DNA of 39,649 nt from a virus, in the IMG/VR virus record IMGVR_UViG_3300009173_000032, positions 1-39,649 of that record; one strand, written 5' to 3'. A program made the position numbers and the translations under genes. The notes under the pieces are model-generated. The model was not told the DNA's origin. It ran no database searches and worked only from the letters and a program-made list of their open reading frames with translations. How positions within the stretch are numbered: the stretch's first letter is position 1; every line of letters starts with the position of its first letter. Shown piece after piece: positions 2,043-39,649 of this stretch.

Positions 2043-2070
2043 TTGACTTTACGTAAAATGTTGTCATACT
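2043..2070 (+). promoter_or_regulatory. Early promoter 5
   Basis: -35 TTGACT 2043-2048, 16-bp spacer, -10 CATACT 2065-2070. The ATG at 2077 is exactly 7 nt after the -10 end, as at promoter 1. A leaderless mRNA is predicted. Confidence 0.8.
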
Positions 2071-2076
2071 AAGGTT

Positions 2077-2488: not shown

Positions 2489-2491
2489 AAC

Positions 2492-2665: not shown

Positions 2666-2674
2666 AAAAAAGAG

Positions 2675-2702
2675 TTGACAAAAACTAAAAACCTGTCAAA
2701 CT
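2675..2702 (+). promoter_or_regulatory. Early promoter 6
   Basis: -35 TTGACA 2675-2680, 16-bp spacer, -10 CAAACT 2697-2702 in TGTCAAACTA. The ATG at 2709 is again exactly 7 nt after the -10 end, so a leaderless mRNA is predicted. Confidence 0.8.
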
Positions 2703-2708
2703 AGAAGC

Positions 2709-2903
2709 ATGATAAGATTAAAAGTTATAAAACCACTTCGTATAAATGAACACCTTCTTAACGTGGGAGATGAATTTGAAGTTGCCGAGGTCAAAGAGGA
2801 TCTCACGACCAAGGCGACCTTTTTTCGTCCTGCAAATGTTAAGGGAATGCCCAAAGGCACTTTTTGGCTGTTCACCAATAAAACCTTTAAAGTTATAGCA
2901 TAA
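2709..2903 (+). CDS. Small hypothetical beta-rich protein (64 aa)
   Basis: The product reads like a small SH3-type barrel (VIKPLRINEHLLNVGDEFEVAEV...), recalling the DIV/GDxF layout of the 392 and 4280 proteins, but without convincing identity. The function is unknown. The start is at the predicted +1 of early promoter 6. Its TAA stop shares the A of the next ATG (TAATG at 2901-2905). Confidence 0.7.
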   Translation: MIRLKVIKPLRINEHLLNVGDEFEVAEVKEDLTTKATFFRPANVKGMPKGTFWLFTNKTFKVIA

Positions 2904-3094
2904 TGATTAAAATCGAAAGACACGTAAACTTCGACAACTGGATAAATGTTAGTATTTACAACAAGCTCGTGGATCAATTCAGTTCGCGCATCGAGGCGGT
3001 TCGTTTTGCTAAAAAGCTTGCCCAAAAGCGAAGGATGAAAGTGTTAGACCTAGACGATAACGAAAAAACCCACAAAGACCTTACTAATGGCTGA
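2903..3094 (+). CDS. Small hypothetical protein, DUF2188-like layout (63 aa)
   Basis: The product (IERHVNFDNWINVSIYNKLVDQFSSRIEAVRFAKKLAQKR...) has an H-V ... W-x-V ... F-x-s-R-x-E-A-v-x-x-A-K-x-L-A layout. This resembles small DUF2188-type proteins, which is a tentative match from memory. The start overlaps the previous stop (TAATG). The end overlaps the next tiny membrane peptide by 8 nt. Confidence 0.65.
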   Translation: MIKIERHVNFDNWINVSIYNKLVDQFSSRIEAVRFAKKLAQKRRMKVLDLDDNEKTHKDLTNG

Positions 3095-3149
3095 ATCAGT
3101 ATTTATTCTTATTGTAGCGATTTTTATATACGCTTATCTTACCCGATAG
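3087..3149 (+). CDS. 20-residue single-helix membrane peptide
   Basis: The ATG at 3087 overlaps the preceding stop (ATGGCTGA). The product, MAESVFILIVAIFIYAYLTR, is a near-ideal transmembrane helix with a basic C-terminal residue. It is one of five such peptides in the early region (others at 4755, 6145, 7681, 8591), all at or near operon ends. The role is unknown. Recurrence and overlap make it more credible than its length alone. Confidence 0.5.
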   Translation: MAESVFILIVAIFIYAYLTR

Positions 3150-3191
3150 GGTAGGGCGACGCGGAAGTCACTTACAGGCCTACGTTCAGGA

Positions 3192-3224
3192 TTGGCACGG
3201 GACGTGCAGCCCGCGCCGTGCCAA
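3192..3224. repeat. GGCACGG hairpin, copy 4
   Basis: TTGGCACGG 3192-3200 pairs with CCGTGCCAA 3216-3224. TGCATGTGTATT and AGTGCATACA (3240-3250) follow, a diverged form of the TGTATGCA/TGCATACA pair. No gene was seen in 3150-3349. Confidence 0.85.
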
Positions 3225-3283
3225 GTGCATGTGTATTAAAAGTGCATACATTTAGCGCTAACGAAAAAACTTTCACAAAACAC

Positions 3284-3311
3284 TTGACTTTATACAATTT
3301 TCTGTCAGACT
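3284..3311 (+). promoter_or_regulatory. Early promoter 7
   Basis: -35 TTGACT 3284-3289, 16-bp spacer, -10 CAGACT 3306-3311 in TGTCAGACTA. The leader to 3350 is about 30 nt and ends AAAAACC-ATG. Confidence 0.8.
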
Positions 3312-3349
3312 ATAAGAATAGTTTAATTAAAACCACGAAATCAAAAACC

Positions 3350-3658
3350 ATGGGAAGCCAACCAGTCAGAAGACCAAACCAGAACTTGTCCGCAAGTGAA
3401 TTACGTGCAGTCAATTCGTTGCACCGTCAGCATCAAGCCTTACTGGCGCAACCTCGGTTTGCCCTGTTGCTTCAATCCAACAGCAACCCCAATCATTCCT
3501 TTAGGGCTTCAGCTTGGGGCGCAAACGCTCAGGAAGCGGTCAATTCTTTCTTTGGCGAAGGCGCAGAAGGCGAGCATTCCCGTAGATGCGTTAGGGTTGT
3601 CAGCGTTCACGCTTGCGAGCATCCTTCGCAAGCCAGCCCTGCGAACAGGGTCAATTAA
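3350..3658 (+). CDS. Hypothetical protein (102 aa)
   Basis: The start ATG at 3350 was chosen because it follows the conserved AAAAACC leader of early promoter 7. The in-frame start at 3218 lies upstream of that promoter. The product is Ser/Asn/Gln-rich, with a central ASAWGANAQEAVNSFFGEG segment and a Cys/His-containing C-terminus (RRCVRVVSVHACEH). No family is recognised. A +1-frame ORF (3396-3695) overlaps most of it but has no leader and runs into the next promoter. Confidence 0.6.
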   Translation: MGSQPVRRPNQNLSASELRAVNSLHRQHQALLAQPRFALLLQSNSNPNHSFRASAWGANAQEAVNSFFGEGAEGEHSRRCVRVVSVHACEHPSQASPANRVN

Positions 3659-3665
3659 AAAACCC

Positions 3666-3693
3666 TTGACTTTACAGAAAAATCTGTCATACT
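3666..3693 (+). promoter_or_regulatory. Early promoter 8
   Basis: -35 TTGACT 3666-3671, 16-bp spacer, -10 CATACT 3688-3693. It begins 8 nt after the preceding stop. Confidence 0.8.
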
Positions 3694-3716
3694 AAAACCA
3701 TAGAAAATTAAAAACC

Positions 3717-3887
3717 ATGAACAAACAAATTATTATCGGCAACCTTACAAAGTTAATCGGCAAAGCAAATGCCCCAAGCGATTTTGCCATCGCAACCACA
3801 ATGGTTCGATTTTCGGATCTCGACAATTCAAACAAGATAAAACTGCATACATTTTTAGCACAAAAAAAGATTCAAAAAGGTCATTGA
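3717..3887 (+). CDS. Small hypothetical protein (56 aa)
   Basis: ATG at 3717 follows an AAAAACC leader downstream of early promoter 8. The product (MNKQIIIGNLTKLIGKANAPSDF...) is basic and unrecognised. Its coding DNA contains one TGCATACA half-site (3844-3851). Its stop codon (TGA 3885-3887) lies inside the -35 of the next promoter. Confidence 0.6.
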   Translation: MNKQIIIGNLTKLIGKANAPSDFAIATTMVRFSDLDNSNKIKLHTFLAQKKIQKGH

Positions 3888-3912
3888 CAAAAGCCTTTTA
3901 TTATGAGATAAT
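3884..3912 (+). promoter_or_regulatory. Early promoter 9 (divergent from the family)
   Basis: -35 TTGACA 3884-3889, 17-bp spacer, -10 GATAAT 3907-3912. It lacks the TGTCATACTA box. Confidence 0.55.
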
Positions 3913-3950
3913 TCTTTAAACTTAAGATTAACCACACACAAAAAACCATT

Positions 3951-4148
3951 ATGACAATCCAAGACCTCGCCCGCCAAGATTCAACCGAACGCGCTTTAAC
4001 TGTTCACGGCTTCGGCGCTTGGCTCGATTCCCAGCAACCCACACCTGAGGAACAGGACAGAATCCTGACGGACATGGAGGAACAAGATTTGCAGCGCAAG
4101 GCCGATCTCCATTGGGATCTATGCCTTGAGGATCTGCTCGCGCACTAG
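3951..4148 (+). CDS. Small acidic hypothetical protein (65 aa)
   Basis: ATG at 3951 follows an A-rich leader (AAAAAACCATT). The product is acidic and helical, with HGFGAWLDSQQPTPEEQDRILTDMEE and a Trp/Leu-rich end. No family is recognised. Base composition is more GC-rich than its neighbours. A 98-codon antisense ORF here is a shadow. Confidence 0.6.
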   Translation: MTIQDLARQDSTERALTVHGFGAWLDSQQPTPEEQDRILTDMEEQDLQRKADLHWDLCLEDLLAH

Positions 4149-4153
4149 CGAGA

Positions 4154-4186
4154 TTGGCACGGGGCGTGCAGCTCGCGCCGTGCCAA
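4154..4186. repeat. GGCACGG hairpin, copy 5
   Basis: TTGGCACGG 4154-4162 pairs with CCGTGCCAA 4178-4186. It is followed by TTGTAGGTATTTTGCATACA, a decayed form of the TGTATGCA palindrome, and then the ACCGCAAAAAAAC tract also seen after copy 1. Confidence 0.85.
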
Positions 4187-4245
4187 CTTGATTTGTAGGT
4201 ATTTTGCATACATTTGTTCACCGCAAAAAAACTTTGACAAAACAC

Positions 4246-4273
4246 TTGACTTTATAAAAAATTCTGTCATACT
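4246..4273 (+). promoter_or_regulatory. Early promoter 10
   Basis: -35 TTGACT 4246-4251, 16-bp spacer, -10 CATACT 4268-4273. The ATG at 4280 is exactly 7 nt after the -10 end, the fourth case of this geometry. Confidence 0.8.
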
Positions 4274-4279
4274 AGAGTC

Positions 4280-4453
4280 ATGATTAAATTAAATGATATA
4301 GTAACAAACAAGACAGGAGCTGTCTTTCAAGTAATTGACCCAAACTACCGCACCGATCGGTTGGGCAACCAAATCCTTTGCCGTAAGTACCGCAGTCAAA
4401 AGCGTGTTGCCTTCATGCCTTGGCAAGTGAAAAAACATCCATTTTTTTCCTAA
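4280..4453 (+). CDS. Small hypothetical protein, KKHPFFS family copy B
   Basis: This 57-residue paralogue of the 392-580 protein shares the MIK start, the D-I-V-T-x-x-T-G core, a basic C-x-x-Y-x-S-Q region and the identical KKHPFFS terminus. The function is unknown. The start is at the predicted +1 of early promoter 10, as in copy A. The following DNA (TCCTAAAAGCCTTGAC) is the same in both, so the duplication includes the downstream promoter. Confidence 0.7.
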   Translation: MIKLNDIVTNKTGAVFQVIDPNYRTDRLGNQILCRKYRSQKRVAFMPWQVKKHPFFS

Positions 4454-4458
4454 AAGCC

Positions 4459-4486
4459 TTGACATTACAGGGAATTCTGTCAGACT
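4459..4486 (+). promoter_or_regulatory. Early promoter 11
   Basis: -35 TTGACA 4459-4464, 16-bp spacer, -10 CAGACT 4481-4486 in TGTCAGACTA. Confidence 0.8.
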
Positions 4487-4525
4487 ATTAAAAGATTAAG
4501 ATTAAAACCACAAAACAAAAACCAT

Positions 4526-4750
4526 ATGAAAAAATTCATCACAAAAAAGTCCAAGATTCAAACCCTTATTAATGCAATTAACCTTGAGGTTAAATGCCCA
4601 AACCTTCCGTTACCCTTCCACAATGAAAGCCACAAGAAGGTTGCTCACGATGCGATTTCCTCCGTTGTGTTTGAGGTTGAACAATTCCTCAAAGAATTTG
4701 GTAGCGAAGATCTTGCCAAGGGTTTTGCCTCTAAGTGCTTAAAAAGGTAA
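4526..4750 (+). CDS. Small hypothetical protein (74 aa)
   Basis: ATG at 4526 follows an AAAAACCAT leader. The product is basic at the N-terminus (MKKFITKKSKIQTLINAINLEVKCP) and helical in the C-terminal half (HDAISSVVFEVEQFLKEFGSEDLAKGFASKCLKR). No family is recognised. The gene is first in a three-gene operon (4526, 4755, 4884) that ends at the terminator at 5077. Confidence 0.65.
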   Translation: MKKFITKKSKIQTLINAINLEVKCPNLPLPFHNESHKKVAHDAISSVVFEVEQFLKEFGSEDLAKGFASKCLKR

Positions 4751-4754
4751 TGCC

Positions 4755-4877
4755 ATGTCAGACATCACTTCAAACCCTCTTTATTGGTTATCCTACAATT
4801 TAGTCGAGATCACCATTGCCATGACGGCATTGACCTTTATTGGATTGACCATTATTGCATTAACCGAAAAACATTAA
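4755..4877 (+). CDS. 40-residue membrane peptide
   Basis: ATG at 4755 lies 4 nt after the previous stop. The C-terminal half (LVEITIAMTALTFIGLTIIAL) is a clear transmembrane helix after a short polar N-terminus, ending TEKH. It belongs to the set of tiny membrane peptides in the early operons. The role is unknown. Confidence 0.5.
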   Translation: MSDITSNPLYWLSYNLVEITIAMTALTFIGLTIIALTEKH

Positions 4878-4883
4878 AAGACC

Positions 4884-5054
4884 ATGACAAAGAAACATTT
4901 TGAACTTATCGCCCAAACACTTAACAAGGCACACAAGCACGACCACAACAAAAATGCGGTTGAAGCTATCGCCTTTGACCTCTCAGTAAAATTTCAGGAT
5001 CTCAATCCAAACTTTGACCAAGCACGATTTGTCGAAGCTGTTACAAAAGATTAA
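4884..5054 (+). CDS. Small hypothetical protein, MTKKHFELIAQ family copy A
   Basis: This 56-residue protein is a close paralogue of the 5917-6114 product. Both read MTKKHFELIAQTLNKA at the start and share AIAFDLSVKFQDLNPNFDQ and FVEA-(V/I)-TKD at the end. Copy B has an extra loop of about nine residues. I recall similar 'HFxxIAxxLxxA ... NPxFDxxRF' small proteins in other phages, role unknown. The 3' end overlaps no gene. The terminator at 5077 closes the operon. Confidence 0.75.
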   Translation: MTKKHFELIAQTLNKAHKHDHNKNAVEAIAFDLSVKFQDLNPNFDQARFVEAVTKD

Positions 5055-5076
5055 CTTTGATTACAATGACATGGTA

Positions 5077-5120
5077 GCCCGTCGAGGTTGGTGGTTCTCC
5101 TCGGCGGGCAATTCTTTTTT
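5077..5120 (+). terminator. Rho-independent terminator, invariant-loop family, copy 2
   Basis: GCCCGTCGAGG (5077-5087) pairs with CCTCGGCGGGC (5099-5109). The loop is TTGGTGGTTCT, followed by AATTCTTTTTT. Relative to copy 1 the stem is one pair shorter, with matching changes on both sides. Confidence 0.85.
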
Positions 5121-5150
5121 GGCACGGGACGTGCAGGCGGCGCCGTGCCA
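5120..5150. repeat. GGCACGG hairpin, copy 6
   Basis: TGGCACGG 5120-5127 pairs with CCGTGCCA 5143-5150. The loop is GGCGGCG-rich on its 3' side, unlike the usual CCCGCG. Confidence 0.8.
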
Positions 5151-5153
5151 TTT

Positions 5154-5179
5154 GGCTCTATCACTGGGCTGGCGGCCGA
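5154..5179. repeat. GGCTCTAT element, copy 2
   Basis: It starts GGCTCTATCACTGGG and ends CGGCCGA, immediately after hairpin copy 6. It opens the first AT-rich intergenic module. Confidence 0.75.
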
Positions 5180-5196
5180 TAGCTTTATGCTTATAG

Positions 5197-5346
5197 TGCA
5201 TACAAGTTACATTTATTTAGTATTTAATCCGAATTAAATCCCATTAAATGATTTAATCGAAAAACTTTAACGATTCGAGCGGCCTTTATGCGATTTTTAT
5301 GCAATTATTTTGCTGTTTGGCTCTATCACTGGCCTCACGGCCGATC
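5197..5346. repeat. AT-rich iteron-like intergenic module, copy A
   Basis: The 373-bp stretch 5055-5427 has no gene. After the terminator and hairpin it begins TGCATACA (5197-5204), then carries clustered ATTAAAT/ATTTAAT direct and inverted repeats (about 5220-5265). An A/T-rich tract follows, and a second GGCTCTAT element (5319-5344) closes it. The same order recurs at 6377 and 7877. Function is unknown. The repeats look like protein-binding or unwinding sites, for example a replication origin. Confidence 0.7.
5319..5344. repeat. GGCTCTAT element, copy 3
   Basis: GGCTCTATCACTGGCC then TCAC then GGCCGA. The two GGCC arms pair around TCAC. It is the distal member of the pair bracketing module A. 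Confidence 0.75.
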
Positions 5347-5353
5347 TTTCTAC

Positions 5354-5381
5354 TTGAGTTTTTCCCATTTTCTGTCATACT
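5354..5381 (+). promoter_or_regulatory. Early promoter 12
   Basis: -35 TTGAGT 5354-5359 (weaker), 16-bp spacer, -10 CATACT 5376-5381 in TGTCATACTA. Leader to 5428 about 40 nt. Confidence 0.75.
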
Positions 5382-5427
5382 ATAAGAATAAACTAATTAA
5401 ATTAACTCAATTAAAAAACCACATATT

Positions 5428-5634
5428 ATGCAAAAGAAAATTGAAATCCGCAAATGGTCGACACATTACAATGTCGCAATCTGGACAACACTTGACCAAG
5501 AAGGTTGCTACAAGTCAAGCCTGCCACGGGTTCGGGTTGCCAGTAGTCGCTCACATCTCAACAAAATTTTAAAGGATGAAGGATCTTGCGTGATGAACTC
5601 TCGATGGGTCAAGGCTGACTGCCTCGTAGATTAA
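5428..5634 (+). CDS. Small basic hypothetical protein (68 aa)
   Basis: ATG at 5428 follows an AACCACATATT leader. The product (MQKKIEIRKWSTHYNVAIWTTLDQEG...) is basic and likely alpha/beta, with two Cys in the C-terminal third. No family is recognised. An overlapping upstream-frame ORF (5288-5572) begins before the promoter and is a shadow. It is a monocistronic unit: the next promoter starts just past the stop. Confidence 0.65.
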   Translation: MQKKIEIRKWSTHYNVAIWTTLDQEGCYKSSLPRVRVASSRSHLNKILKDEGSCVMNSRWVKADCLVD

Positions 5635-5638
5635 ACGC

Positions 5639-5666
5639 TTGACTTTATAAAAAATTCTGTCATACT
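5639..5666 (+). promoter_or_regulatory. Early promoter 13
   Basis: -35 TTGACT 5639-5644, 16-bp spacer, -10 CATACT 5661-5666. Confidence 0.8.
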
Positions 5667-5706
5667 ATTATTATATTAAGATTAAAAACCACAAACCAAA
5701 AAAACC

Positions 5707-5898
5707 ATGCATAAACTATTAATTGATATTATCAACCCTGATGACAATTCTGTTGTCAAGTCAGGCGTTACAATGACCACGGACGGAAAGCTTTCCGTTT
5801 GCGAGATGAACAGCATTTTATTTAAACAAGGCGGAAATGTTTTCCGTGTTGTCGAAGTGATTACAAAAAACCCAAACCTACAATTTAACTTATTCTAA
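5707..5898 (+). CDS. Small hypothetical protein (63 aa)
   Basis: ATG at 5707 follows an AAAAAAACC leader. The product is probably beta-rich (MHKLLIDIINPDDNSVVKSGVTMTTDGKLSVCEMNSILFKQGGNVFRVVEVI...). No family is recognised. It is first in a three-gene operon (5707, 5917, 6145) that ends at the terminator at 6261. Confidence 0.65.
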   Translation: MHKLLIDIINPDDNSVVKSGVTMTTDGKLSVCEMNSILFKQGGNVFRVVEVITKNPNLQFNLF

Positions 5899-5916
5899 AA
5901 GAAGGAAAAAACTATT

Positions 5917-6114
5917 ATGACAAAGAAACATTTTGAACTTATCGCCCAAACCCTTAACAAGGCTTACACTATTGCGTCTCCTGGGTCTACAAGTCACCAC
6001 AATTCAGTAATGAATGTTGTCGAAGCTATCGCCTTTGATCTGTCAGTAAAATTTCAGGATCTCAATCCCAACTTTGACCAAGTCAGATTTGTCGAAGCTA
6101 TTACAAAAGATTAA
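5917..6114 (+). CDS. Small hypothetical protein, MTKKHFELIAQ family copy B
   Basis: This 65-residue paralogue of the 4884-5054 protein has nearly identical DNA in the first 48 bases and in the last third. The centre differs: copy B carries ASPGSTSHHNSVMNV where copy A has a shorter His-rich loop. Upstream spacing and operon position (second gene before or near a tiny membrane peptide, then the same terminator) also match, so a whole operon segment was duplicated. Confidence 0.75.
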   Translation: MTKKHFELIAQTLNKAYTIASPGSTSHHNSVMNVVEAIAFDLSVKFQDLNPNFDQVRFVEAITKD

Positions 6115-6144
6115 CTTTTAAGTATCATCAAAAAAAACAAAAAC

Positions 6145-6234
6145 ATGAAAACTCCATTAATTATATTCGCCTTGACTACCCTTCTGTATGTGTCGCACGT
6201 TGTTCTGATGGACTGGATGAAGTTTCTTGCTTAA
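6145..6234 (+). CDS. 29-residue membrane peptide
   Basis: ATG at 6145 follows an AAAAAC leader. The product starts MKTPLIIFALTTLLYVSHVVL and forms one hydrophobic helix ending in WMKFLA. It is the last gene before the terminator at 6261. The role is unknown. Confidence 0.5.
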   Translation: MKTPLIIFALTTLLYVSHVVLMDWMKFLA

Positions 6235-6260
6235 AAAGTATTAACTTTTATTTATGGTGG

Positions 6261-6299
6261 CCCTGTCGAGGTTGGTGGTTCTCCTCGGCAGGGTTTTTT
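6261..6299 (+). terminator. Rho-independent terminator, invariant-loop family, copy 3
   Basis: CCCTGTCGAGG (6261-6271) pairs with CCTCGGCAGGG (6283-6293). The loop is TTGGTGGTTCT and TTTTTT follows (6294-6299). Confidence 0.9.
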
Positions 6300-6329
6300 G
6301 GCACGGGACGTGCAGCCCGCGCCGTGCCA
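6299..6329. repeat. GGCACGG hairpin, copy 7
   Basis: TGGCACGG 6299-6306 pairs with CCGTGCCA 6322-6329, abutting the terminator T-run. Confidence 0.85.
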
Positions 6330-6332
6330 TTT

Positions 6333-6358
6333 GGCTCTATGACTGGGCTGGCGGCCGA
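6333..6358. repeat. GGCTCTAT element, copy 4
   Basis: GGCTCTATGACTGGG through CGGCCGA. It is the proximal element of module B. Confidence 0.75.
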
Positions 6359-6376
6359 TGCCTTTATGCATATAAA

Positions 6377-6530
6377 TGCATACAAGTAGTATTTAATCTG
6401 AATTAAATCGAATTAAATGCGATTAAATGATTTTCCGCTGAATTTCTCACAATTTAAAGAGCTTTAAGCGATTTTTTATGAGATTATTTTGCTGTTTGGC
6501 TCTATGACTAGCCTCAGAGCTGAAGATTGT
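6377..6530. repeat. AT-rich iteron-like intergenic module, copy B
   Basis: The 372-bp stretch 6235-6606 has no gene. The module begins TGCATACA (6377-6384). It holds GAATTAAATC, GAATTAAATG and CGATTAAATG repeats at about 6399-6429, then an A/T-rich tract and a distal GGCTCTAT element. It is very similar to module C, exactly 1,500 bp downstream. Confidence 0.75.
6498..6523. repeat. GGCTCTAT element, copy 5
   Basis: GGCTCTATGACTAGCC through GAGCTGA. The hairpin arms are AGC and GCT instead of GGCC and GGCC, so the stem is kept although the bases changed. Confidence 0.7.
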
Positions 6531-6532
6531 CG

Positions 6533-6560
6533 TTGTATTTTTCGAAAAATGCTTTATAAT
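6533..6560 (+). promoter_or_regulatory. Second-type promoter, copy 1
   Basis: -35 TTGTAT 6533-6538, 16-bp spacer containing the palindrome TTTTTCGAAAAA, -10 TATAAT 6555-6560. This consensus -10 differs from the CATACT family. An identical arrangement lies at 8033-8060. Confidence 0.75.
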
Positions 6561-6606
6561 GGTACATAGACAATTAAGAAAGACCTAACCAAGAAAGATA
6601 AAAACC

Positions 6607-6843
6607 ATGCAGTTATTCAAAGCCACTCACTTTTTCATCACACCTCACGCTGGAGATTCCGCTTGCGGGTTTGGGTTCTCCAAGTCACCTAAGCAAGCCG
6701 TCAAGCTTGCCAAGCAATCTGCCGAGGTCAATCTCGCCCGCTGGGATGCGGAGCATGAACATTGTTCCTCAATCGGTGGGGAAGTTACCCACCTCCTCAA
6801 TGCCAGCAATGGCGTTGTAGTCAAGCAGATCCTTGATCTGTAA
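6607..6843 (+). CDS. Hypothetical protein (78 aa)
   Basis: ATG at 6607 follows a purine-rich leader (AAGAAAGATAAAAACC). The product (MQLFKATHFFITPHAGDSACGFGFSKSPKQAVKLAKQSAEVNLARW...) has a beta-type N-terminus and an Ala/Lys-rich helix containing SPKQAVKLAKQ. No family is recognised. It is first in a run 6607-7060 driven by the second-type promoter. The antisense ORF at 6645-6863 is a shadow. Confidence 0.7.
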   Translation: MQLFKATHFFITPHAGDSACGFGFSKSPKQAVKLAKQSAEVNLARWDAEHEHCSSIGGEVTHLLNASNGVVVKQILDL

Positions 6844-6877
6844 ACCTTTATTTTAAACCACAAACAAAAAAACCATT

Positions 6878-7060
6878 ATGACAAAAAACCAACTTATTCA
6901 CGCAACAGAAACGCAAGAAATTGCTCGCCTTGAAAAGCAGATCCAAGAATGGACTGACAGGCTGAACCGCTCACGCAAAAACTCATTGCGTGCAATGCGT
7001 GCAATGCATCGCGAGCATCTCGTTGCCAAGCTTAACAGGCTACAGCGAGAAAACGCTTGA
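6878..7060 (+). CDS. Small basic coiled-coil protein, SRKNSLRAMRAM family copy A
   Basis: This 60-residue basic helical protein (ETQEIARLEKQIQEWTDRLNRSRKNSLRAMRAMHREHLVAKLNRLQ) is probably a short coiled coil. It is paralogous to the 8104-8256 product, with which it shares EWT-x-RLN-x-SRKNSLRAMRAMH. The DNA for that core is almost unchanged between copies. The highly basic core suggests nucleic-acid or acidic-protein contact, which is inference. Its TGA stop lies in the next -35. Confidence 0.65.
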   Translation: MTKNQLIHATETQEIARLEKQIQEWTDRLNRSRKNSLRAMRAMHREHLVAKLNRLQRENA

Positions 7061-30557: not shown

Positions 30558-30578
30558 GTGTAATTATTATCGCAAATG
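30558..30578 (+). promoter_or_regulatory. Late-type box upstream of the tape measure gene
   Basis: GTGTAATTATTATC (30558-30571) matches the box at 26477 at 13 of 14 bases, here 18 nt from its start to the ATG at 30576. Confidence 0.58.
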
Positions 30579-33500
30579 GCGCAGGAAAGCATAGGTATTA
30601 GAGTAAAAGCGGTTGGCCTACAGAAGGACGTAGAGAACCAAGCGAAGGCCGCACAGCGTACTATTTCGAAGACTCCTGTTAAATTAGCTTTGGACTCCAA
30701 GGCTTTCCAGCAACCTCTTGGCAGGATTTCGGGCGACATGTCGGAGTTCCAGAAATCCCTGGACGCTTCCACCGCTCGTGTATTTGCATTTGGCGCAACC
30801 GTCGGAGTGATTAACGGCATAAGCGAAGCCTTCAAAGGAACCACGCAGGCCATTATTGAGGTACAACGTGCCCTCACCGACATTAATGTTGTCATGGAAT
30901 TAAACGCCAGTCAATTAGACTCTTTTTCCGATGGGCTTTTTAAGGTAGCTCAAAATACAGCTCAAACTTTTGCGACTGTAGCTACGGCTGCTACGGAATT
31001 TGCGCGGCAAGGGCTAGGGGCCGAAGAGACCTTAAGGAGAGTAAACGATGCTCTGGTCTTGACTCGACTCTCAGGAATGGATGCCACCCGTTCTGTAGAA
31101 GCCTTAACTGCTGTTGTGAATGGCTTCGCCAAAGAAGGGCTCAATACTACCGAGGTGATTAACCGCCTAGCTAATGTAGACGCTGCATTCGCCGTAAGCT
31201 CTAAAGATTTAGCAGATGGATTATCGAGGGCGGGAGCTACAGCCCAGGGAGCGGGAGTAAACTTTAATGAGCTTTTAGCAATTGTAACATCCGTTCAACA
31301 GCAAACCGCTCGAGGGGGCGCAGTTATCGGAAATGCATTTAAAAGTATTTTTACTCGCCTTCAGCGAAGCAAAGTAAGAGAAACGTTAGAGGGGATTGGG
31401 GTGGCCACTACTGATTCTATGGGAGGTTTTAGATCTGCTATTTCTGTTTTGAAAGATTATGCTGGCGTTTTCCCTGCTCTAACTGACGCGCAACAGGCTT
31501 TTACTGCAGAACAAATTGCAGGGGTTTTTCAAATCAATAATTTAAAAGCCCTCGTAAATGATTTAAATAATGAATTCTCTATTTATAGCCAGGCTTTATC
31601 TACCGCTGCCAACAGTACTAATGAGGCTACTCGACGGAATGAAGCACTCAACCAAACTTTTGCTGCATTAATTGCTCAAACTGGAGAAGGTGTACGCCAA
31701 CTGGCTGAGTCTTTTGGGTCTCTTACTTTAGAGCCTGCCATGAATCGGGTCTTAACAATGTTGCAATCGGTGGTGGACACAATGAATTCAATGCTTGACC
31801 AAGACAGCGGGAACAAAATGATGCAAGGCTTTTTTAAGGGGTTAGGTAATTTTATTTCTGGCCCAGGATTGGCGCTCGTGGCAGGAGCCTTTGCGGCTCT
31901 TTTGAAAAATATAGCGATGATGGGGGCGGCTGCCGTTAAAGATTTATTTAAAATTAATACTGAAGCGGGTCGTCAAAAGGCTTTACAAGAAGGGATTTTG
32001 CAGGTTCTGTTAAAAGACGAAGCGGTTTATGGACGCCTAATCGCAGCAGGAGGAGATCAAAATAAACAATCTCAGGTTTTACTTCAAACAGTTCGTCAAA
32101 TTACTTCTGAGTACGCCAAACAACAGGGGCTTATTGTTGGTCTCGCAAAAACCCCCGCTATGAAGGGTGTCACCTTTCAAGGCGGCCAATTTAAGGGTAC
32201 CAGCCCAACGGGTCAAAAAAAAATAGGAGGGACCGCCGCTCAGGGATATGTTCCCGCAGAAAAAGGAGTAGTTTTTGCAGCGGGAGCCACGCCGAGTAAG
32301 GACGCCTTTGCCTTGGGAGGGATGCCTGAGGTTCAAGCAGCTCAAGCCGCAGGTTATGCGAAACCTGTCCAGCTGCATGAAACGCGAACAATGGCTGTTC
32401 CGAATTTGGGTCAAATAATATATAATACGCAAGAGCGCGTGGTTAACGTGCCTAATATGGCGCAGCCTTTTATTGTGCCACCCACCTCTTCTAAGGCCTA
32501 TGCTAATTACGCCGACACCGTAAAAGAAAAATTTGGAGAGCCCATGAGTAAAAATGTGTTGGGTCGCGCTTTCACCCCCGCTCAGCGAGCATACGCAGAG
32601 GGCTGGAGTCCTGTAGCTACAGCACAAAGAGTGGGAGAAGCGGCTCGGGCGGCCTCTGGCCTCGTACCTAATTACGCTATTAGCGCTAGAAACATACAAA
32701 ATTTGCTAGGGACAAAGCACAAAATTGACCCTACACAGTATTATGAATATCGGGGGACGGTAGCGAGGGGGTCGGCTTTGCAAAAGGCGTTTAAGACGGA
32801 TGAAGATGGCGCCCTTGCTTGGAACCCTAAATCTATTGTGGCGAGAAACCTCGCTAAAAAAGGTGATTTTGCAGGAGGACTCACAGAAGGAAAAGGACTG
32901 CGTCGCCATAAGCTTGAATCCAAGAGTGGAGTTTCTATGTTGCTTCCCGAGCAAACCTCCAGCAATAGTGCAACAGGAGTTAATATCTCTATTTCAGGAA
33001 AAGACTTAACAAAAACATTTAAGTCGGGCACCATCAATAAAATTGTAGGGAAACGAGCCTTAGCTCGCAAGGGAATTAGAACAGAAAAAGATGCGAAGAA
33101 GGCGGTGCGGTCGAGCCTTGCTAATGATATTTTTGATGTAAGCTTTTCGCGGTCGGGGGTCCAAGATTTAGAACGAGAGACTTCTCTGCGAGAAAAAATT
33201 GATACAAAACTGTCTTCACAGATGGCTAGCATTATGGGTTCTACCGCCAAGGAGTTGTTAACCCGAGCTAAGATGACCGCCCCTATGGATCAGGGCGCAA
33301 TACAACAAAGAGCTAAAAAATTAGTAAGCAGAAATTCCCCCCTCACGGGACAACTATTTGAAGATATTGTTACAATTGCAATTGGCAAGTCTCAGGAGTT
33401 TCAAGGTACCGACGATTACAGAACGTGGGACTTTGGCGCAGCCGAACGTGGGGGCCTAAATGAAATTTTTGATAGAGACGTAAGTGCGCGGTCTGATGCA

Positions 33501-36500
33501 AAAAGATCAGATACTCCCCATGCGCGGGCCTCTATAGCCAAAAAGAGTTTGGTAGGAACCCCCAAAGGTCGGGCACTATTAAAAAAGGCGGGGCTTAGGC
33601 TTGGCGGCTTAGGAGCCTCAGAGCTAGGGGCCAGCGGCTTAGTCCCTAATTTTGCTGGCCCCCGAATGACGGCCGCTCAGGCCGCCTTTATAAAAATTAC
33701 AGGCCCCAAAGAGATCGCAGCGAATAAAAAGCTCGGGTGGGAACCTGGTCCCAATGGAGGGTGGGAACGGATTCCTAAGGCTACAGCCCCGAAGGCTGCA
33801 GTAGCCCTCCCTAAGGATTTAGAAACTTTTAATAAATACCTAACGACTTTTAGAGCTAAGAATTTCAACGGAAACCCTATTAAATTTACCAAGGGTCAAG
33901 GTGCGCCTTATGTCTGGAAAAATAATAAAGCCGCGTTTTCGCGAGGGAACCCCAATATAGGGTTATCGCAGGGGTCTAATCCTGATATGTTTTTCTTGGA
34001 AAAGAAGGGTATGAGCGACGAGTTGAAAGATAAAATTAGAAAATTAATGTTTCAGAGCCCTCGTATGCAACGGGTGGATCCTCTTGGGGGAAAGATGGCT
34101 CAGAGGGAAAAGAATTATGAGCGCGCCAAAAGTGGAAAAGTGCGGGCTAAAGGTTTAGTTCCTAATTTAGCTGAACGCGCTAGTTTAACGGACCTTTCTA
34201 CTTTGAAAAAATCTCCTGGACTTCTGTCCAATGCCAGACAAACCTCCAGGTTATATGAAGCCGCTATGGGCAGCCAGCTTTATGATAATCCCGTTCAATT
34301 TGGAGATACTAGGGTTGAGAAAATCCAAATGGCTAGCGGCGGAATGGTTCCCGTGGCAGTCAATAATCAAGAGCAAGTATTTAAAACAGGTACAGATGTA
34401 AAGCGACATTTCGGCCTAAAGTCTGCCCCTGACGGAGGAATGGTATTGCCTCCCGCAAGTGCCCCCGTGGGCAAAGAAGCGAGAAAAGTTTTTACAGAAC
34501 GGGTACAAAATGCGGCAGGAGGAGTAGTTCCGAATTTTGCAGCAAGCTCTATGGACTTAGCTGATTTTTTTGATAAGCTAGAAAAAAGAGATCCTGAGGC
34601 TTTAGAAAAGAAAATTAATATTGGGCAGTTAAGTAAAGACCTTTCCAAGGGAGGCATATTGACAGGTAGTCACCCCGCCAATGTATTAGAAAAATTTCCA
34701 GGATATATGCGACTAGGGGGAAAAACCCCTCCTGGTCAAGACAGCTCTATTAGATTAAGCCCCAAGGTTTTGGGTAAATTAGGGTGGGGCGATAACGTTA
34801 CAGGATCCCAATTATTGGCCCTCAAGGGGAGTTCGGGCGATTCTACTTATAAACAAATACGTACCGCCTTACTTACCAAGGCAGCGCATGGAGAGGGCAA
34901 AAGACTCACGCAGACTTATGGGGGTCGCGCAGGTCAAGCAGGGATGAAGGTGAAGAAAAAAATGGAGGAAGCAATTAATGTTCCTGCTAATCTTCATGGA
35001 GTAGGAGCAGGGTTTGTAGACCCTCTCGGCGCAGGACAACAGAATTTTAATGTTAAAATGCAGGTTGGGGATCAACCTTATAATATTGATTTTCAAGGAA
35101 GCCATGTTTTTAAAAGCTTTATGCCTAAAATTGGCAATTGGCAGGAGACAGTAATAAAACAATTTAGTCAAGGATTGGCCAATATAGCTAAGAGCTTTAA
35201 TTTTTCAGGAGCTTTAGCTGCAGTTAAGGAATTGCCTAACTTTCCTGTAGAATTTAATAAAAGCCTTGACAAGACTATGGTCGCTACAATTGCAGGTAAT
35301 GCTTTTGACGCTACAATACAAACTCTTTTAAAAACAGCTCCTGGTTTTGATAGCAGGGGCAGTGCTGCCAAGCTGCCTATTCAGCGCAAGGCAGGAGTGG
35401 ACCCTATAGATTTAAATACCATTCCGCCCGCCTTAAAAGAAATAATGAATATACCTGCGATGGCGCACAGGTTAGAATTGAAGAGTACCTCCACGAGCGC
35501 TGATCTCAGATATGATATAGGAAAAAAGATTTTGGGTGTAATTTCTAAAAACCCAGAAATGGAGAAGAAACTAGGGATTGCGGGAGATAAAACGAAGAGC
35601 AAACGTTTTCAAGCGCTTGGTACAGAAGAGGACTATAAGCAAAAGGGCCTTCGTATTCAGCGTAAGTTTGCTGCATCTGCGGGTACTCCTTTGGCCGCAG
35701 GAATAATACCTAATTTTGCTTTTGAAGATTATGCTGATAAAAGATTTAAGTTAAATGAATTGCCCAAAAAGTTACCTGCTAATATTAGTGATGCAGTAAA
35801 AAGGGAAGAGGCTGCGGGAGTTCCAAAAAGCGCTATACGCGTAGATTTTCCTGCCGCTGGAGGGAGAGTGCCTAACTTTAATAAAATGCCCCCTATTGCG
35901 GTTACCAATACGGAGCATGAAGGGAGTACTTCTTCTGCCAAACAAGCCGTATCTATAGGTATTCGTAATAGGTTGACTGCTTATAAGAGCGCGGGCATTT
36001 CAGGTAATCCAATGCTTGCTGGAACAAATATGGAATTTGCCGCAGGCGGAATTGTGCCAAATTATGCGTTGCCTTTGGGGGGCGGAGGAGACCAGAGGAA
36101 AAGAAATAAACTAATAGCGGAATTATTGGAAGACATAGACAAGGCTGAGCCAGCTAAGGTAGGCAGCCCTGATACTCAAGAAAAGGTAGACGAGGCTCTT
36201 AACAAGGAGAAGGAGCGCATTAAAGGCTTACGGCAGCAGATTACCGAAAGATTAGACGTTAAGGAGGGATCGATTTTTAGTAAAAGCACTGGGAAAGATA
36301 CGCCTAAAATGTTAGAAATTTTACAAAAAAGGCAGGCAAATGAAGTCCTAACGAAAAAAGGCGAGCCGCAGCAAAGCAGAGCCGCCGCGTTCTCTACGAG
36401 CCAAATAGAAACAATGCAAACAGCGCAAACTTTAGAGGAATTTAATAAAGTTAGTGAAGATGCTATCCGTGACAGTAAAAAGCAATATGAACGAGGAGAG

Positions 36501-39500
36501 ATAACCCGCGGACAATTAACAAAGAGACAGAAGGCTATATTTAAACAGACAGGCTACACAGGTGTTGAGGCGCCCCAAAAGGCGCAGGAATTTAAGCAGC
36601 AAAGCGTTTCTAATGTAAAAAATCCTAAATTAAAAACACAGCTACAAAACCAAGCCCTGGCCCCCACGCCCGCAGGCGAGCTCACCCAAGCGCAACAAAC
36701 CGCTATTCTTGACGAAGGAGTAGTGAGAAAGAAAGATCTTAACCCGAAGGAAGGTTTAAGCGGAAGATCACAAACCATGCGGGCGCAGATGGAGACGGCA
36801 ATTAAGAAGCATGCCACATTGGGGGGCGCAAACATTACACCAGAGCAAAGTGCCCAGCTTCAGCCTGATGCAGAGGAAAGACGCCAATTAGTTAAAGCGC
36901 GAGATGCTGCGCTGAAAAAGACACAAATAGCTTTTAAGGCTTCGGATGAAGCACTAGGAGGGACCCAAAAGGGCACTGCTGGAGGCGCCAGGAGCGGAGG
37001 CCTCAACGCTGAAATCACAAAATCGGAAGCTCGCCAAAAACAAATAGTACAAAACGCTGCACAAGAGATAAGAATAGCTGAAACTAAAAAGGCGGATAAG
37101 GCGTACATGGATGAGGTTAAGAAAATAACGGGCGACGCAGGAGGCGACGTGGGCAAAAAACTGACACCAAAAAGTATTTCCGCTTATGAAGCTGCATTTG
37201 GCGATACTACTGAACAGGGAGAGGTAAGCAAAGGTAAAAAACAGTTTAGGGGTGATTTAGATACCGCCATAAGAACCCAGGAGGCTATTGACAATAGTAG
37301 GATGGAGGATGCCAATAAAGGCATTGCCGAACAAGATAAAAGGCTTGCAGCTTTAAAAGAAGAAATAGCCCAAGAAAAGAAAACTGCACGTAAAGGTAAT
37401 GAGGCGGAGAAAAAGGTAGTAAAAGTTAAAGAACAAATATTTAAGGATTTAAAGGCGCAGCGCAAACAACAAAACGCGGCTTCAGATAAAGCTTTCGGAA
37501 AAGGCATGCATCGTCCTGGGTTGGCAAATGCAGCTTTTACGTTACCTTTTGTTTTATCTATGGGAGCGGGAATGATGCCCGAACAAGCAGGAGGTACTAA
37601 GGGTGGAAAAACAATGGGGGCCGCTCAAGGCGCTATGCAGGGTGCGGGTATGGGAGCCATGGGCTTTATGGCAGGAGGCCCAACGGGCATTATTACAACT
37701 GTAATTGGGACGGTGGTAGGAGGACTCATGGGCTTCATGGGCAAATTAAGTCCCAGCATAGAAGAGCTTACGAAAAACTTTGCAGACATGAACGCACGGG
37801 CAGTTTCTGTTACAAACACTACAAGCGGCTATTTAAAAATTCAAGAGCAATTAAATCAAGCCCTACAAACAGGAGACGCAAAAAGACAACTAAAACTACA
37901 AAAAGACCTAAAGGAAGCTTTTGTGGATATCGTTGATTCTGATGTGCGGTCACAAATTATTAGCACAGGAGGAGATTTAGATCAGTTAGGAGACGTTTTA
38001 CAGAGAGTTAGCTTAGACGCTAAAAATGCCGCTCAAGAACTGGCACTTGTAGCTCAGTTTGCGCAGACAGGGGAAGACGCGGGGGGTTGGCACGGCATGG
38101 GTAAGCGGGCAGTTAAGGAAAGCGAAATAGAAAAACTTGGCCAGACGCTACAGTTAAAGGGAAAAATTGAAGACCCCAAACAAATAGAAAAAATTCGAGG
38201 AGCTATGTCGAAAGGGGACCCGCGCGCAGCGCTTGAGGGGTTTGGGCTTTCTGGTGAGGCGCAGGATACTATTGTTGACGATTCCCGCATGAAGGTAACC
38301 GATATTTTTAGAGCCATAGAAAAAGCGCTAGACAATAGCGCCCAAATAATTGAAGAATCTCGTTTTATAGAAATTCTCCAGAAAGATGCGCACTCCCTTA
38401 AGAGTTATAATGAAGAGATTACCCGCACCGCTAATATTTTATCTCGGGGTTATGGGCGTATAGCTGATTACTTTGGCCAGCTCTCAAAATTAAGCGAGAA
38501 TCTTTTTCAGCGCCGCCTGGCATTACGAGATACTCTGGGCCTAGAAGCGCCCACGCGGAGCCGCGAAGATTTAGCGGCTTATCGGACTGCTCAACTAGAT
38601 ACGTCACAAGCCATACAGACGCAAAAATTATTCGCAGACTTTATTGAGGAGTCTCGCGACTTCGGCAACGAACCCCTTAAGACGGCTTATGAAAGCGCAT
38701 TAGCCAAGAGTACATCCCCAGGGGGGATAGATCCCACTAAACTCGCAGAACAAATCCTTAGGGTGGTTGGGAACCCTAGGACGAGCGACGGCGAAACGAT
38801 CAAGCTAGAAGAGGGCTCCGACGAGATTGCAGCGAGGAATACGTTAATTAAATCACTTCAAGATTTAAACGTTTCTACTCAACTAGAGAAGGCTTCCATT
38901 GATTTAAACAATAGGCTTCTGGATAGGCAAAAACTAGTAGCCAGTCAGAGCCGCATGACCAAAATGTCCTCTGACGAAGTAAAGCTTTTTAAGAACTTCA
39001 CGCTAGTTCAAGAGGATCGCGCCCAGGATGTTTCGGACAATATCATTGCCCAATCCCAGAAGGCAAAATTTACTTTGGATTTGGCGAGCTTTTTTAAGCA
39101 GCGTAACATGACCACGAATGATGAATTTCGGGGAGACGTTCAAAAAGCTACAGAAACAAAGCTTTTAGTTAATTCTATTAGAACTCTTACTGCTTTTGGG
39201 CAAGAGTTTGTTAGAGAGACCGATCCTAACTTTGGGGTTACTGATCCCGTAAAGTTCTTTTTCCCCTCCCAGGCACCTGGAGAATTCGAAAAGGAGATGC
39301 AAAAACAAGAAGGAGAAAGTGATACTGACGCCCTAACTAGAATAAATAACTATGTAGAAAAGCTGCAAGATCCTACTGAATTTTTAAACACTAGGCTTTT
39401 TGAAACTCCTCAATGGGGGGAATATACCAAAAAGAACTTCTCGGGGCCTGATGGTGAGGAACGACAGCGAAAACAAGAAAATCTCGCAAGGATTTCTTTA

Positions 39501-39649
39501 GGCGGCACAAGGGCATCGATTATAGCTTCCAGAGCAGAAGAGGCTAAAGGACCTATGGCCGCGGCCGAAACTGGTTTAATGCTGCAGGATTCTCTCAAGA
39601 AGTCTGGGGTAGATATGCAGGAGGTGGTAGAGAGATTTTTCGGTAAAGG
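30576..39649 (+). CDS. Tail tape measure protein (partial, more than 3,024 aa)
   Basis: The frame is open from ATG 30576 to the window edge, 3,024 codons without a stop. Residues about 1-430 match the TP901-type tape-measure core (FAFGATVGVINGISEAF; FAQTV-like coiled helices; GLSRAGATAQGAGVNFNELLAIVTSVQQQTARGGAVIGNAFKSIFTRL). Residues about 690-1830 hold seven G-x-[VI]-P-N-[FYL] motifs and two segments with PD-(D/E)XK-like residues. Residues about 2319-2388 form a Gly-rich hydrophobic stretch (MGAAQGAMQGAGMGAMGFMAGG) like a membrane-inserting zipper. The rest is coiled coil. Tail length would exceed about 450 nm at 0.15 nm per residue. Many antisense ORFs are shadows. Confidence 0.9.
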   Translation, partial: MAQESIGIRVKAVGLQKDVENQAKAAQRTISKTPVKLALDSKAFQQPLGRISGDMSEFQKSLDASTARVFAFGATVGVINGISEAFKGTTQAIIEVQRALTDINVVMELNASQLDSFSDGLFKVAQNTAQTFATVATAATEFARQGLGAEETLRRVNDALVLTRLSGMDATRSVEALTAVVNGFAKEGLNTTEVINRLANVDAAFAVSSKDLADGLSRAGATAQGAGVNFNELLAIVTSVQQQTARGGAVIGNAFKSIFTRLQRSKVRETLEGIGVATTDSMGGFRSAISVLKDYAGVFPALTDAQQAFTAEQIAGVFQINNLKALVNDLNNEFSIYSQALSTAANSTNEATRRNEALNQTFAALIAQTGEGVRQLAESFGSLTLEPAMNRVLTMLQSVVDTMNSMLDQDSGNKMMQGFFKGLGNFISGPGLALVAGAFAALLKNIAMMGAAAVKDLFKINTEAGRQKALQEGILQVLLKDEAVYGRLIAAGGDQNKQSQVLLQTVRQITSEYAKQQGLIVGLAKTPAMKGVTFQGGQFKGTSPTGQKKIGGTAAQGYVPAEKGVVFAAGATPSKDAFALGGMPEVQAAQAAGYAKPVQLHETRTMAVPNLGQIIYNTQERVVNVPNMAQPFIVPPTSSKAYANYADTVKEKFGEPMSKNVLGRAFTPAQRAYAEGWSPVATAQRVGEAARAASGLVPNYAISARNIQNLLGTKHKIDPTQYYEYRGTVARGSALQKAFKTDEDGALAWNPKSIVARNLAKKGDFAGGLTEGKGLRRHKLESKSGVSMLLPEQTSSNSATGVNISISGKDLTKTFKSGTINKIVGKRALARKGIRTEKDAKKAVRSSLANDIFDVSFSRSGVQDLERETSLREKIDTKLSSQMASIMGSTAKELLTRAKMTAPMDQGAIQQRAKKLVSRNSPLTGQLFEDIVTIAIGKSQEFQGTDDYRTWDFGAAERGGLNEIFDRDVSARSDAKRSDTPHARASIAKKSLVGTPKGRALLKKAGLRLGGLGASELGASGLVPNFAGPRMTAAQAAFIKITGPKEIAANKKLGWEPGPNGGWERIPKATAPKAAVALPKDLETFNKYLTTFRAKNFNGNPIKFTKGQGAPYVWKNNKAAFSRGNPNIGLSQGSNPDMFFLEKKGMSDELKDKIRKLMFQSPRMQRVDPLGGKMAQREKNYERAKSGKVRAKGLVPNLAERASLTDLSTLKKSPGLLSNARQTSRLYEAAMGSQLYDNPVQFGDTRVEKIQMASGGMVPVAVNNQEQVFKTGTDVKRHFGLKSAPDGGMVLPPASAPVGKEARKVFTERVQNAAGGVVPNFAASSMDLADFFDKLEKRDPEALEKKINIGQLSKDLSKGGILTGSHPANVLEKFPGYMRLGGKTPPGQDSSIRLSPKVLGKLGWGDNVTGSQLLALKGSSGDSTYKQIRTALLTKAAHGEGKRLTQTYGGRAGQAGMKVKKKMEEAINVPANLHGVGAGFVDPLGAGQQNFNVKMQVGDQPYNIDFQGSHVFKSFMPKIGNWQETVIKQFSQGLANIAKSFNFSGALAAVKELPNFPVEFNKSLDKTMVATIAGNAFDATIQTLLKTAPGFDSRGSAAKLPIQRKAGVDPIDLNTIPPALKEIMNIPAMAHRLELKSTSTSADLRYDIGKKILGVISKNPEMEKKLGIAGDKTKSKRFQALGTEEDYKQKGLRIQRKFAASAGTPLAAGIIPNFAFEDYADKRFKLNELPKKLPANISDAVKREEAAGVPKSAIRVDFPAAGGRVPNFNKMPPIAVTNTEHEGSTSSAKQAVSIGIRNRLTAYKSAGISGNPMLAGTNMEFAAGGIVPNYALPLGGGGDQRKRNKLIAELLEDIDKAEPAKVGSPDTQEKVDEALNKEKERIKGLRQQITERLDVKEGSIFSKSTGKDTPKMLEILQKRQANEVLTKKGEPQQSRAAAFSTSQIETMQTAQTLEEFNKVSEDAIRDSKKQYERGEITRGQLTKRQKAIFKQTGYTGVEAPQKAQEFKQQSVSNVKNPKLKTQLQNQALAPTPAGELTQAQQTAILDEGVVRKKDLNPKEGLSGRSQTMRAQMETAIKKHATLGGANITPEQSAQLQPDAEERRQLVKARDAALKKTQIAFKASDEALGGTQKGTAGGARSGGLNAEITKSEARQKQIVQNAAQEIRIAETKKADKAYMDEVKKITGDAGGDVGKKLTPKSISAYEAAFGDTTEQGEVSKGKKQFRGDLDTAIRTQEAIDNSRMEDANKGIAEQDKRLAALKEEIAQEKKTARKGNEAEKKVVKVKEQIFKDLKAQRKQQNAASDKAFGKGMHRPGLANAAFTLPFVLSMGAGMMPEQAGGTKGGKTMGAAQGAMQGAGMGAMGFMAGGPTGIITTVIGTVVGGLMGFMGKLSPSIEELTKNFADMNARAVSVTNTTSGYLKIQEQLNQALQTGDAKRQLKLQKDLKEAFVDIVDSDVRSQIISTGGDLDQLGDVLQRVSLDAKNAAQELALVAQFAQTGEDAGGWHGMGKRAVKESEIEKLGQTLQLKGKIEDPKQIEKIRGAMSKGDPRAALEGFGLSGEAQDTIVDDSRMKVTDIFRAIEKALDNSAQIIEESRFIEILQKDAHSLKSYNEEITRTANILSRGYGRIADYFGQLSKLSENLFQRRLALRDTLGLEAPTRSREDLAAYRTAQLDTSQAIQTQKLFADFIEESRDFGNEPLKTAYESALAKSTSPGGIDPTKLAEQILRVVGNPRTSDGETIKLEEGSDEIAARNTLIKSLQDLNVSTQLEKASIDLNNRLLDRQKLVASQSRMTKMSSDEVKLFKNFTLVQEDRAQDVSDNIIAQSQKAKFTLDLASFFKQRNMTTNDEFRGDVQKATETKLLVNSIRTLTAFGQEFVRETDPNFGVTDPVKFFFPSQAPGEFEKEMQKQEGESDTDALTRINNYVEKLQDPTEFLNTRLFETPQWGEYTKKNFSGPDGEERQRKQENLARISLGGTRASIIASRAEEAKGPMAAAETGLMLQDSLKKSGVDMQEVVERFFGK
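32652..36068 (+). repeat. Seven G-x-[VI]-P-N-[FYL] motif copies within the tape measure
   Basis: In-frame copies are ASGLVPNYA (32652), ASGLVPNFA (33630), AKGLVPNLA (34146), AAGGVVPNFA (34512), AAGIIPNFA (35694), AAGGRVPNFN (35853) and AAGGIVPNYA (36039). These are protein motifs, not DNA repeats: codons differ among copies. They flank segments of 50-370 residues. Confidence 0.85.

Follow-up and report, generated by a model that had tools for sequence, protein, structure and literature searches.

Tape-measure proteins (TMPs) are usually viewed as rulers and as aids to DNA entry. Phages are also known to carry effectors within the virion, the virion RNA polymerase of phage N4 and the Alt protein of phage T4 being two examples. 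These proteins and DarA of phage P1 are thought to enter with the genome and to act early. In polymorphic toxins, which include CdiA, Rhs, and the phage-type MuF systems, a constant frame carries a highly variable, recombining effector region; one survey predicts that MuF systems are packaged in phage heads (PMC3482391). Fusion of an enzyme domain to a TMP is found in SPbeta-like staphylococcal phages, whose TMPs bear a lysostaphin-like annotation.

A further point of comparison is provided by the PD-(D/E)XK nucleases, such as NERD, Mrr, and Tox-REase, which share the order Glu (within a helix), Asp, and [Asp/Glu]-x-Lys. Free exchange of Asp and Glu before x-Lys, together with a fixed Glu, Asp, and Lys, is a mark of an active site of this type. 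In the usual PD-(D/E)XK fold, Asp and [DE]xK lie on a beta-hairpin, and a helix between them is unusual. Among the families described in the survey, Tox-REase-7 has the motifs GxxxE, IxD, and ExK, and Tox-REase-2 has E, DG, and [DE]xK (PMC3482391).

The window analyzed here, a virus record of 39,649 bases (IMGVR_UViG_3300009173_000032), encodes a TMP in which a domain with this order of residues occurs twice, as module 1 and module 2 (Table 1). The reading that is slightly favored is that module 2 is a second, divergent nuclease-like copy, which lies in an exchangeable cassette of the TMP and acts at entry.

The tape-measure gene and its relatives

The long ORF at the 3' end of the window matches Pfam PF10145 (E 2.4e-26) and tape-measure families of PHROG (best phrog_4211, 2.1e-53), and it has both the N-terminal TMP domain and the length that characterize a tape measure. 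A left constant block is followed by four segments bracketed by VPN motifs and then by the right constant block, DAVKREEAAGVPKSAI. The first of these segments holds module 1, and the last holds module 2, immediately before the DAVKREEAAGVPKSAI block. The pattern of this block is present in the window and in 39 of the 58 other TMPs scanned, and in relatives it comes after the cassette. The first half of this last cassette (34542-35147, TMP residues ~1323-1524) has no match in Pfam or NCBIfam and may be a further cargo domain.

Table 1. Features of the tape-measure gene in the window
Feature	Position	Strand	Basis or remark
Tail tape-measure protein (TMP) gene	30576..39647	+	ORF, 3024 aa, runs off the window's 3' end
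PhageMin_Tail, conserved TMP N-terminal domain	30945..31523	+	Residues 124-316, Pfam
VPN motif 1, GLVPNY	32658..32675	+	Motif scan
Module 1, intact nuclease-like domain copy	33192..33545	+	E929, D952, D974-x-K976, K990
VPN motif 2, GLVPNF	33636..33653	+	Motif scan
VPN motif 3, GLVPNL	34152..34169	+	Motif scan
VPN motif 4, GVVPNF	34521..34538	+	Left border of the module 2 cassette
Module 2, divergent nuclease-like domain copy	35148..35531	+	Residues 1525-1652, profile match
D1578, where 114/115 family copies have Glu	35307..35309	+	Alignment column
D1612, near-invariant Asp	35409..35411	+	Alignment column
E1634-L-K1636, [DE]xK element	35475..35483	+	Alignment column
K1651, second conserved Lys	35526..35528	+	K in 104/104 rows having the column
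VPN motif 5, GIIPNF	35700..35717	+	Right border of the module 2 cassette
Constant block DAVKREEAAGVPKSAI, 3' of the cassette	35790..35837	+	Relatives' pattern DAIGRExAAGVPVSQI
VPN motif 6, GRVPNF	35862..35879	+	Motif scan
VPN motif 7, GIVPNY	36048..36065	+	Motif scan

Direct searches of viral contigs with module 1 and module 2 gave no match because the relatives are too divergent; consequently, relatives were gathered through the conserved N-terminus of the TMP. This yielded one close relative (L002), then 58 loci including L002, 80 more that were the best of at least 572 relatives, and 5 MAG contigs, four of which are labeled Flavobacteriales or Flavobacteriaceae and one Neomarinimicrobiota. 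With the window, 144 records were obtained, 141 of which have a TMP ORF of at least 700 aa, and removal of duplicates left 121 TMPs. The family counts given below refer to this set, which draws in part on the best 80 of at least 572 relatives. Module 1 is conserved in L002, the contig of which stops short of the position of module 2. The tail-region proteins of L002 at 1724-4282 and 4324-6903 have long threonine/proline-rich TTT repeats between short folded-looking segments.

Among the matches listed, isolate phages have a TMP N-terminus that is ~23-28% identical. The domain itself had no match in a collection of 50,697 phage records when module 2, L054, L060 copy 2, and L055 were used as queries, and in 52 and 395 genomes representing the family and the phylum of the phage-bearing MAGs, it was present solely in those MAGs. 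A stand-alone homologue of the module 2 segment, which the original prediction had proposed as a check, was found neither in the phage records nor in the MAG-related genomes searched.

A family of divergent domains

Seven similar segments were picked by eye and aligned, and the resulting profile was iterated over the 121 TMPs. Module 1 joined at the first round and is recovered at E 2.7e-19 with a profile lacking module 2. In all, 115 copies of the domain are present in 107 of the 121 TMPs, eight of which have two copies; the 14 TMPs without the domain include two short ORFs (L086, L143) and seven others with a GNAT motif. Although the median pairwise identity among the 115 copies is just 20%, several columns are nearly invariant: Gly (115/115), Glu, Asp, and Lys (114 each), [DE] (115, with 78 Asp and 37 Glu), a second Lys (all 104 copies in which it is present), and two Phe (108 and 103). 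The family signature is Glu-Asp-[Asp/Glu]-x-Lys plus Lys, and its E, D, and [DE]xK elements are all present in 112 of the 115 copies. Module 2 reads D-D-ExK.

The motifs of module 2 lie where they were first reported: GNAFDATIQTLL from residue 1574 (35295), VDPIDL from 1608 (35397), HRLELKSTSTSAD from 1631 (35466), and KKILGV from 1650 (35523), with D1578, D1612, E1634, and K1636 at the expected positions. Taken alone, these motifs are at about the level of chance. A strict motif pattern is found 3 times in the TMP versus 0.48 times per shuffle, and 9% of 2000 shuffles contain it at least twice. Furthermore, direct alignment of module 1 with module 2, another check that had been proposed, is not significant, the score being reached by 127 of 1000 shuffles. 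Such results would be expected if module 2 were a linker that fits a loose nuclease pattern by chance. As a member of the family, however, module 2 is above chance. A profile built without it, from the TMPs of other phages and module 1, matches residues ~1521-1653 of the window TMP at 19.9 bits (E 5.2e-6) with the catalytic columns in register, whereas 726 reversed or shuffled TMPs give at most 9.5 bits and the best non-TMP ORF under 700 aa reaches 11.2 bits; once module 2 is included in the profile, its E is about 4e-13. In addition, module 2 lies directly before the constant block, which in relatives comes after the cassette. A chance resemblance is very improbable, and by profile comparison module 2 is almost certainly a genuine, if divergent, member of an undescribed domain family.

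The profile and the alignment columns thus place modules 1 and 2 in one family and bear out the claim that they share an order of residues. The KK ending proposed as common to both was right in part: the second lysine (K990 and K1651) is truly common, but module 1 has KKSLVG and module 2 has KKILG, with no residue between Leu and Gly.

Comparison of the family with Pfam, PHROG, NCBIfam, PADLOC, and the PDB gave no family match, and single members gave scattered weak matches or none. Profile matches in the PDB to a lectin (0.014) and to a histone doublet were dismissed as unrelated; those to the lectin span just the GxxFE stretch and the residues after it up to the Asp. By these comparisons the domain family appears to be new, with no described family matching it.

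Three of the 115 copies deviate at the active site: Glu is replaced by Asp in module 2, Lys by Ser in L061 copy 2, and Asp by Glu in L071. The Asp in place of the first Glu had been pointed out in the original prediction, and module 2 proves to be the sole case. One explanation is that module 2 belongs to the right family but is dead, module 1 being the working copy and module 2 a decaying remnant that the cassette array tolerates. Two of the three deviants, module 2 and L061 copy 2, are indeed second copies in two-copy TMPs, and the E-to-D spacing of module 2 is the longest in the family (34 versus a median of 22). However, D1612, E1634, K1636, and K1651 are all retained, the second copies of L060, L067, and L068 show no such deviation, and acidic metal sites can use Asp; a dead copy is therefore considered unlikely. 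In this phage, the active copy is probably module 1. Asp-Glu-Lys is retained in module 2, but the Asp at the position of the helix Glu may have weakened it or altered its specificity, and activity of module 2 itself is possible but somewhat doubtful.

VPN motifs and exchange of cassettes

The 121 TMPs (303,457 aa) contain 594 examples of the motif G-[FYH]-[IV]-P-N-[FY]-A, as opposed to 4 in the remaining ORFs (410,030 aa) and 3 in the shuffled TMPs, and 120 of the 121 TMPs have at least two. VPN motifs flank 114 of the domain copies on both sides, with the next motif at a median of 32 residues; the remaining copy (L142) is not flanked according to this pattern. In the L042 TMP, a long repeat array (GSKNQ...PPQER units) occupies residues ~640-1130, between the first two VPN motifs. 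At the DNA level, the 594 motifs comprise 361 distinct 18-mers, and their codon use is near background. Because the codons are so diverse, the motif is taken to be conserved as protein, and a DNA-level recombination site was rejected.

Whole cassettes are exchanged between these motifs. Among TMP pairs that are at least 90% identical N-terminally, the domains are less than 35% identical in 66% of 80 pairs, and sister phages with N-terminal halves that are 97-100% identical have domains that are 12-18% identical. The extreme pairs are L018/L023 (100% versus 13%) and L030/L057 (99% versus 12%). The reverse is seen with L101/L074, in which the N-termini are 79% and the domains 98% identical; that is, a common cassette lies in different backbones. 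The DNA of L018 and L023 is 94% identical over 11.9 kb up to position 11893 (the motif is at 11873), and similarity restarts at 12623, exactly where the next VPN motif begins. Sixty-two pairs have an N-terminal identity of at least 93%, and 49 of these break before residue 1000. In 48 of the 49, the break lies within 30 nt of the center of a VPN motif, compared with 5.5 expected and a maximum of 15 in 2000 draws. It should be noted that each break position is uncertain by about 20 nt, since similarity continues through the conserved motif itself. The other end is looser: in 30 of the 49 pairs, similarity restarts no more than 30 nt from a VPN motif. The 62 sister pairs are not independent and were therefore also counted as 19 independent clusters, 18 of which break within 20 nt of a VPN motif, the exception being L042/L043. 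The TMPs thus have a constant frame in which the putative effector region is replaced by recombination at a fixed motif, and there is very little doubt that module 2 sits in such an exchangeable, VPN-bordered cassette. In L018/L023, L030/L057, L034/L057, and other sister pairs, the TMP sequence beyond the last VPN motif diverges as well, and so variability is not confined to the cassette.

In L030/L057 and L034/L057, the flanks align over their whole length (5 kb upstream, about 4.5 kb downstream) and the cassette has no aligned DNA, indicating that no neighboring gene was exchanged along with it. No immunity gene exchanged with the cassette was seen in the closest of 10 pairs examined; the flanks of several others are less complete. 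That cassettes are replaced with no immunity gene linked to them speaks against a toxin-immunity pair and is in keeping with a payload whose action is limited to entry.

The exchange could also be explained by selfish homing, in which a nuclease promotes the spread of the cassette that encodes it by cutting alleles that have a different one, so that replacement reflects homing rather than adaptation of cargo. A nuclease-like domain does lie inside the exchanged segment, and nuclease genes have been described at boundaries of genetic exchange between phages (PMC10448857). However, comparable VPN slots hold cassettes that lack the domain and carry a GNAT or a CCA enzyme instead, and the lack of conservation of the motif DNA leaves no common cut site at the motif. 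Homing is accordingly an improbable account of these data.

Other cargo between VPN motifs

Pfam and NCBIfam scans of 98 of the 220 non-redundant VPN segments revealed Acetyltransf_1 (Pfam) in 6 (best 7.3e-08) and the head of a poly(A) polymerase/CCA-adding enzyme in 2, with an NCBIfam match to CCA enzyme at 2.6e-52. Complete CCA domains lie between two VPN motifs in the TMPs at L067:14606-16153 and L066:13616-15019. In L067, the CCA tRNA nucleotidyltransferase (E 7.7e-20) covers residues 1547-2062, thereby filling the space between the motifs at 1540 and 2063, and it keeps the GG...RD...DxD residues of a nucleotidyltransferase; the L066 segment has an E of 9.4e-15. It is possible that a CCA enzyme borne by a TMP serves as a tRNA-repair counter-defense. 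The acetyl-CoA-loop motif of GNAT enzymes ([QR]G[KQ]G[YI]G) is found between two VPN motifs in 8 TMPs: L010 (cassette at TMP residues 1265-1422), L007, L070, L082, L115, L125, L138, and L140. Seven of these lack the nuclease-like domain, and L070 has both. With the GNAT and CCA-enzyme segments and the cassette breaks at VPN motifs, the earlier proposal that VPN motifs bracket enzyme-like cargo is well supported.

Nuclease signature and predicted fold

The active-site signature of the 115 copies favors a PD-(D/E)XK-like enzyme, and on this basis the designation as a PD-(D/E)XK nuclease is likely. AlphaFold2 models of both modules were made from 97- and 64-row alignments (mean pLDDT 73 and 77). 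As assigned by DSSP, both have one bridge residue just after the Asp (1613 in module 2; 953 in module 1) and another just before [DE]xK (1633; 973), and in both the active-site Glu is within the preceding helix, a predicted arrangement that would be compatible with an active site. Both models also have a helix between Asp and [DE]xK, at odds with the usual PD-(D/E)XK fold, and the strands there are short, consisting of single bridge residues. Searches of the PDB with Foldseek and VIA-align, and of viral models with Foldseek, returned no nuclease for either model but rather helical chance matches. A match to a nuclease fold, on which the original prediction had staked its reading, was thus not provided by structure search, the models being of middling confidence. 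Profile alignment of the family with NERD and Mrr by hhalign was not significant either; NERD against Mrr itself gives E 0.0024. The nuclease reading therefore rests on the signature, from which nuclease chemistry is rather probable.

The main rival to this reading is that the domain is a non-enzymatic adaptor with a structural or recognition role in the TMP, for example binding an inner-membrane protein during DNA entry. Its diversity would then arise from changes in the host or from escape from defenses that bind TMPs, with host factors that target TMPs, such as SNIPE, exerting the pressure, and the charged residues would form a salt bridge or a metal site. TMPs do contact host membrane proteins, and the defense nuclease SNIPE acts through TMPs (PMC13190303). 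The failure of the structure searches to find a nuclease fold and the variability of the C-terminal part of the TMP are likewise in line with an adaptor. Nevertheless, top columns of E, D, [DE]xK, and K with free exchange of Asp and Glu typify a metal site, not a binding face, and GNAT and CCA enzymes occupy VPN-bracketed slots in relatives. An adaptor is therefore judged to be distinctly unlikely.

A model for the tape measure as a carrier

Taken together, these results suggest that interchangeable proteins are injected into bacteria along with phage DNA. In the most likely model, the TMP would carry plug-in domains, which would pass into the host when it is infected. The conserved residues of the nuclease-like domain would make up a metal-binding nuclease site similar to that of PD-(D/E)XK enzymes. 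The cassette would travel in the tail and reach the host with the tape measure, before or alongside the DNA; such delivery of the domain into the cell is reasonably probable. Once injected, the domain would act early on nucleic acid, which could be host DNA, competing elements, or RNA, and the rapid exchange of cassettes would reflect an arms race.

A broader version of this model can be put forward tentatively. In these uncultivated phages, the TMP might constitute a polymorphic effector system in which VPN motifs are the joints and the plug-ins, which would be nuclease-like, acetyltransferase, CCA tRNA-repair, or unrecognized, are stored in the tail, injected along with the DNA, and traded among sister phages as part of an arms race with host defenses. 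The CCA enzymes might then restore tRNAs damaged by defenses, and the new nuclease-like family might attack nucleic acid of the host or of rivals upon entry.

Comparison with known systems

Here, domains that look catalytic, and of which some are clearly enzymes, are exchanged at a conserved slot of the ruler, which offers a testable case that tails deliver an early protein payload to the cytoplasm. The TMP relatives in metagenomes, of which there are hundreds (at least 572), could provide a natural catalogue of entry effectors and counter-defenses, with the VPN motif as a handle for locating such cargo. This would also be relevant to defenses that recognize TMPs (PMC13190303). In the open-licence PMC literature searched, nothing was found on VPN cassettes or exchangeable TMP enzymes.

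Despite the shared order of residues, the domain differs from PD-(D/E)XK nucleases in that it has no significant sequence, profile (NERD and Mrr compared), or structure match to them; in addition, it has the predicted helix between Asp and [DE]xK and an extra conserved Lys and, within what was searched, is found solely inside TMPs. Unlike the effector regions of polymorphic toxins, the cassettes occupy the middle of the TMP, flanked by constant sequence to the left and right; the closest pairs show no immunity gene that is exchanged along with the cassette, and TMP slots of the same kind also carry GNAT and CCA enzymes. The enzymes of SPbeta-like TMPs have cell-wall targets, whereas here the types are nuclease-like, acetyltransferase, and tRNA-repair and occupy exchangeable VPN slots. 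Finally, in contrast to the virion RNA polymerase of N4, Alt, and DarA, the effector here would be an exchangeable domain of the TMP itself.
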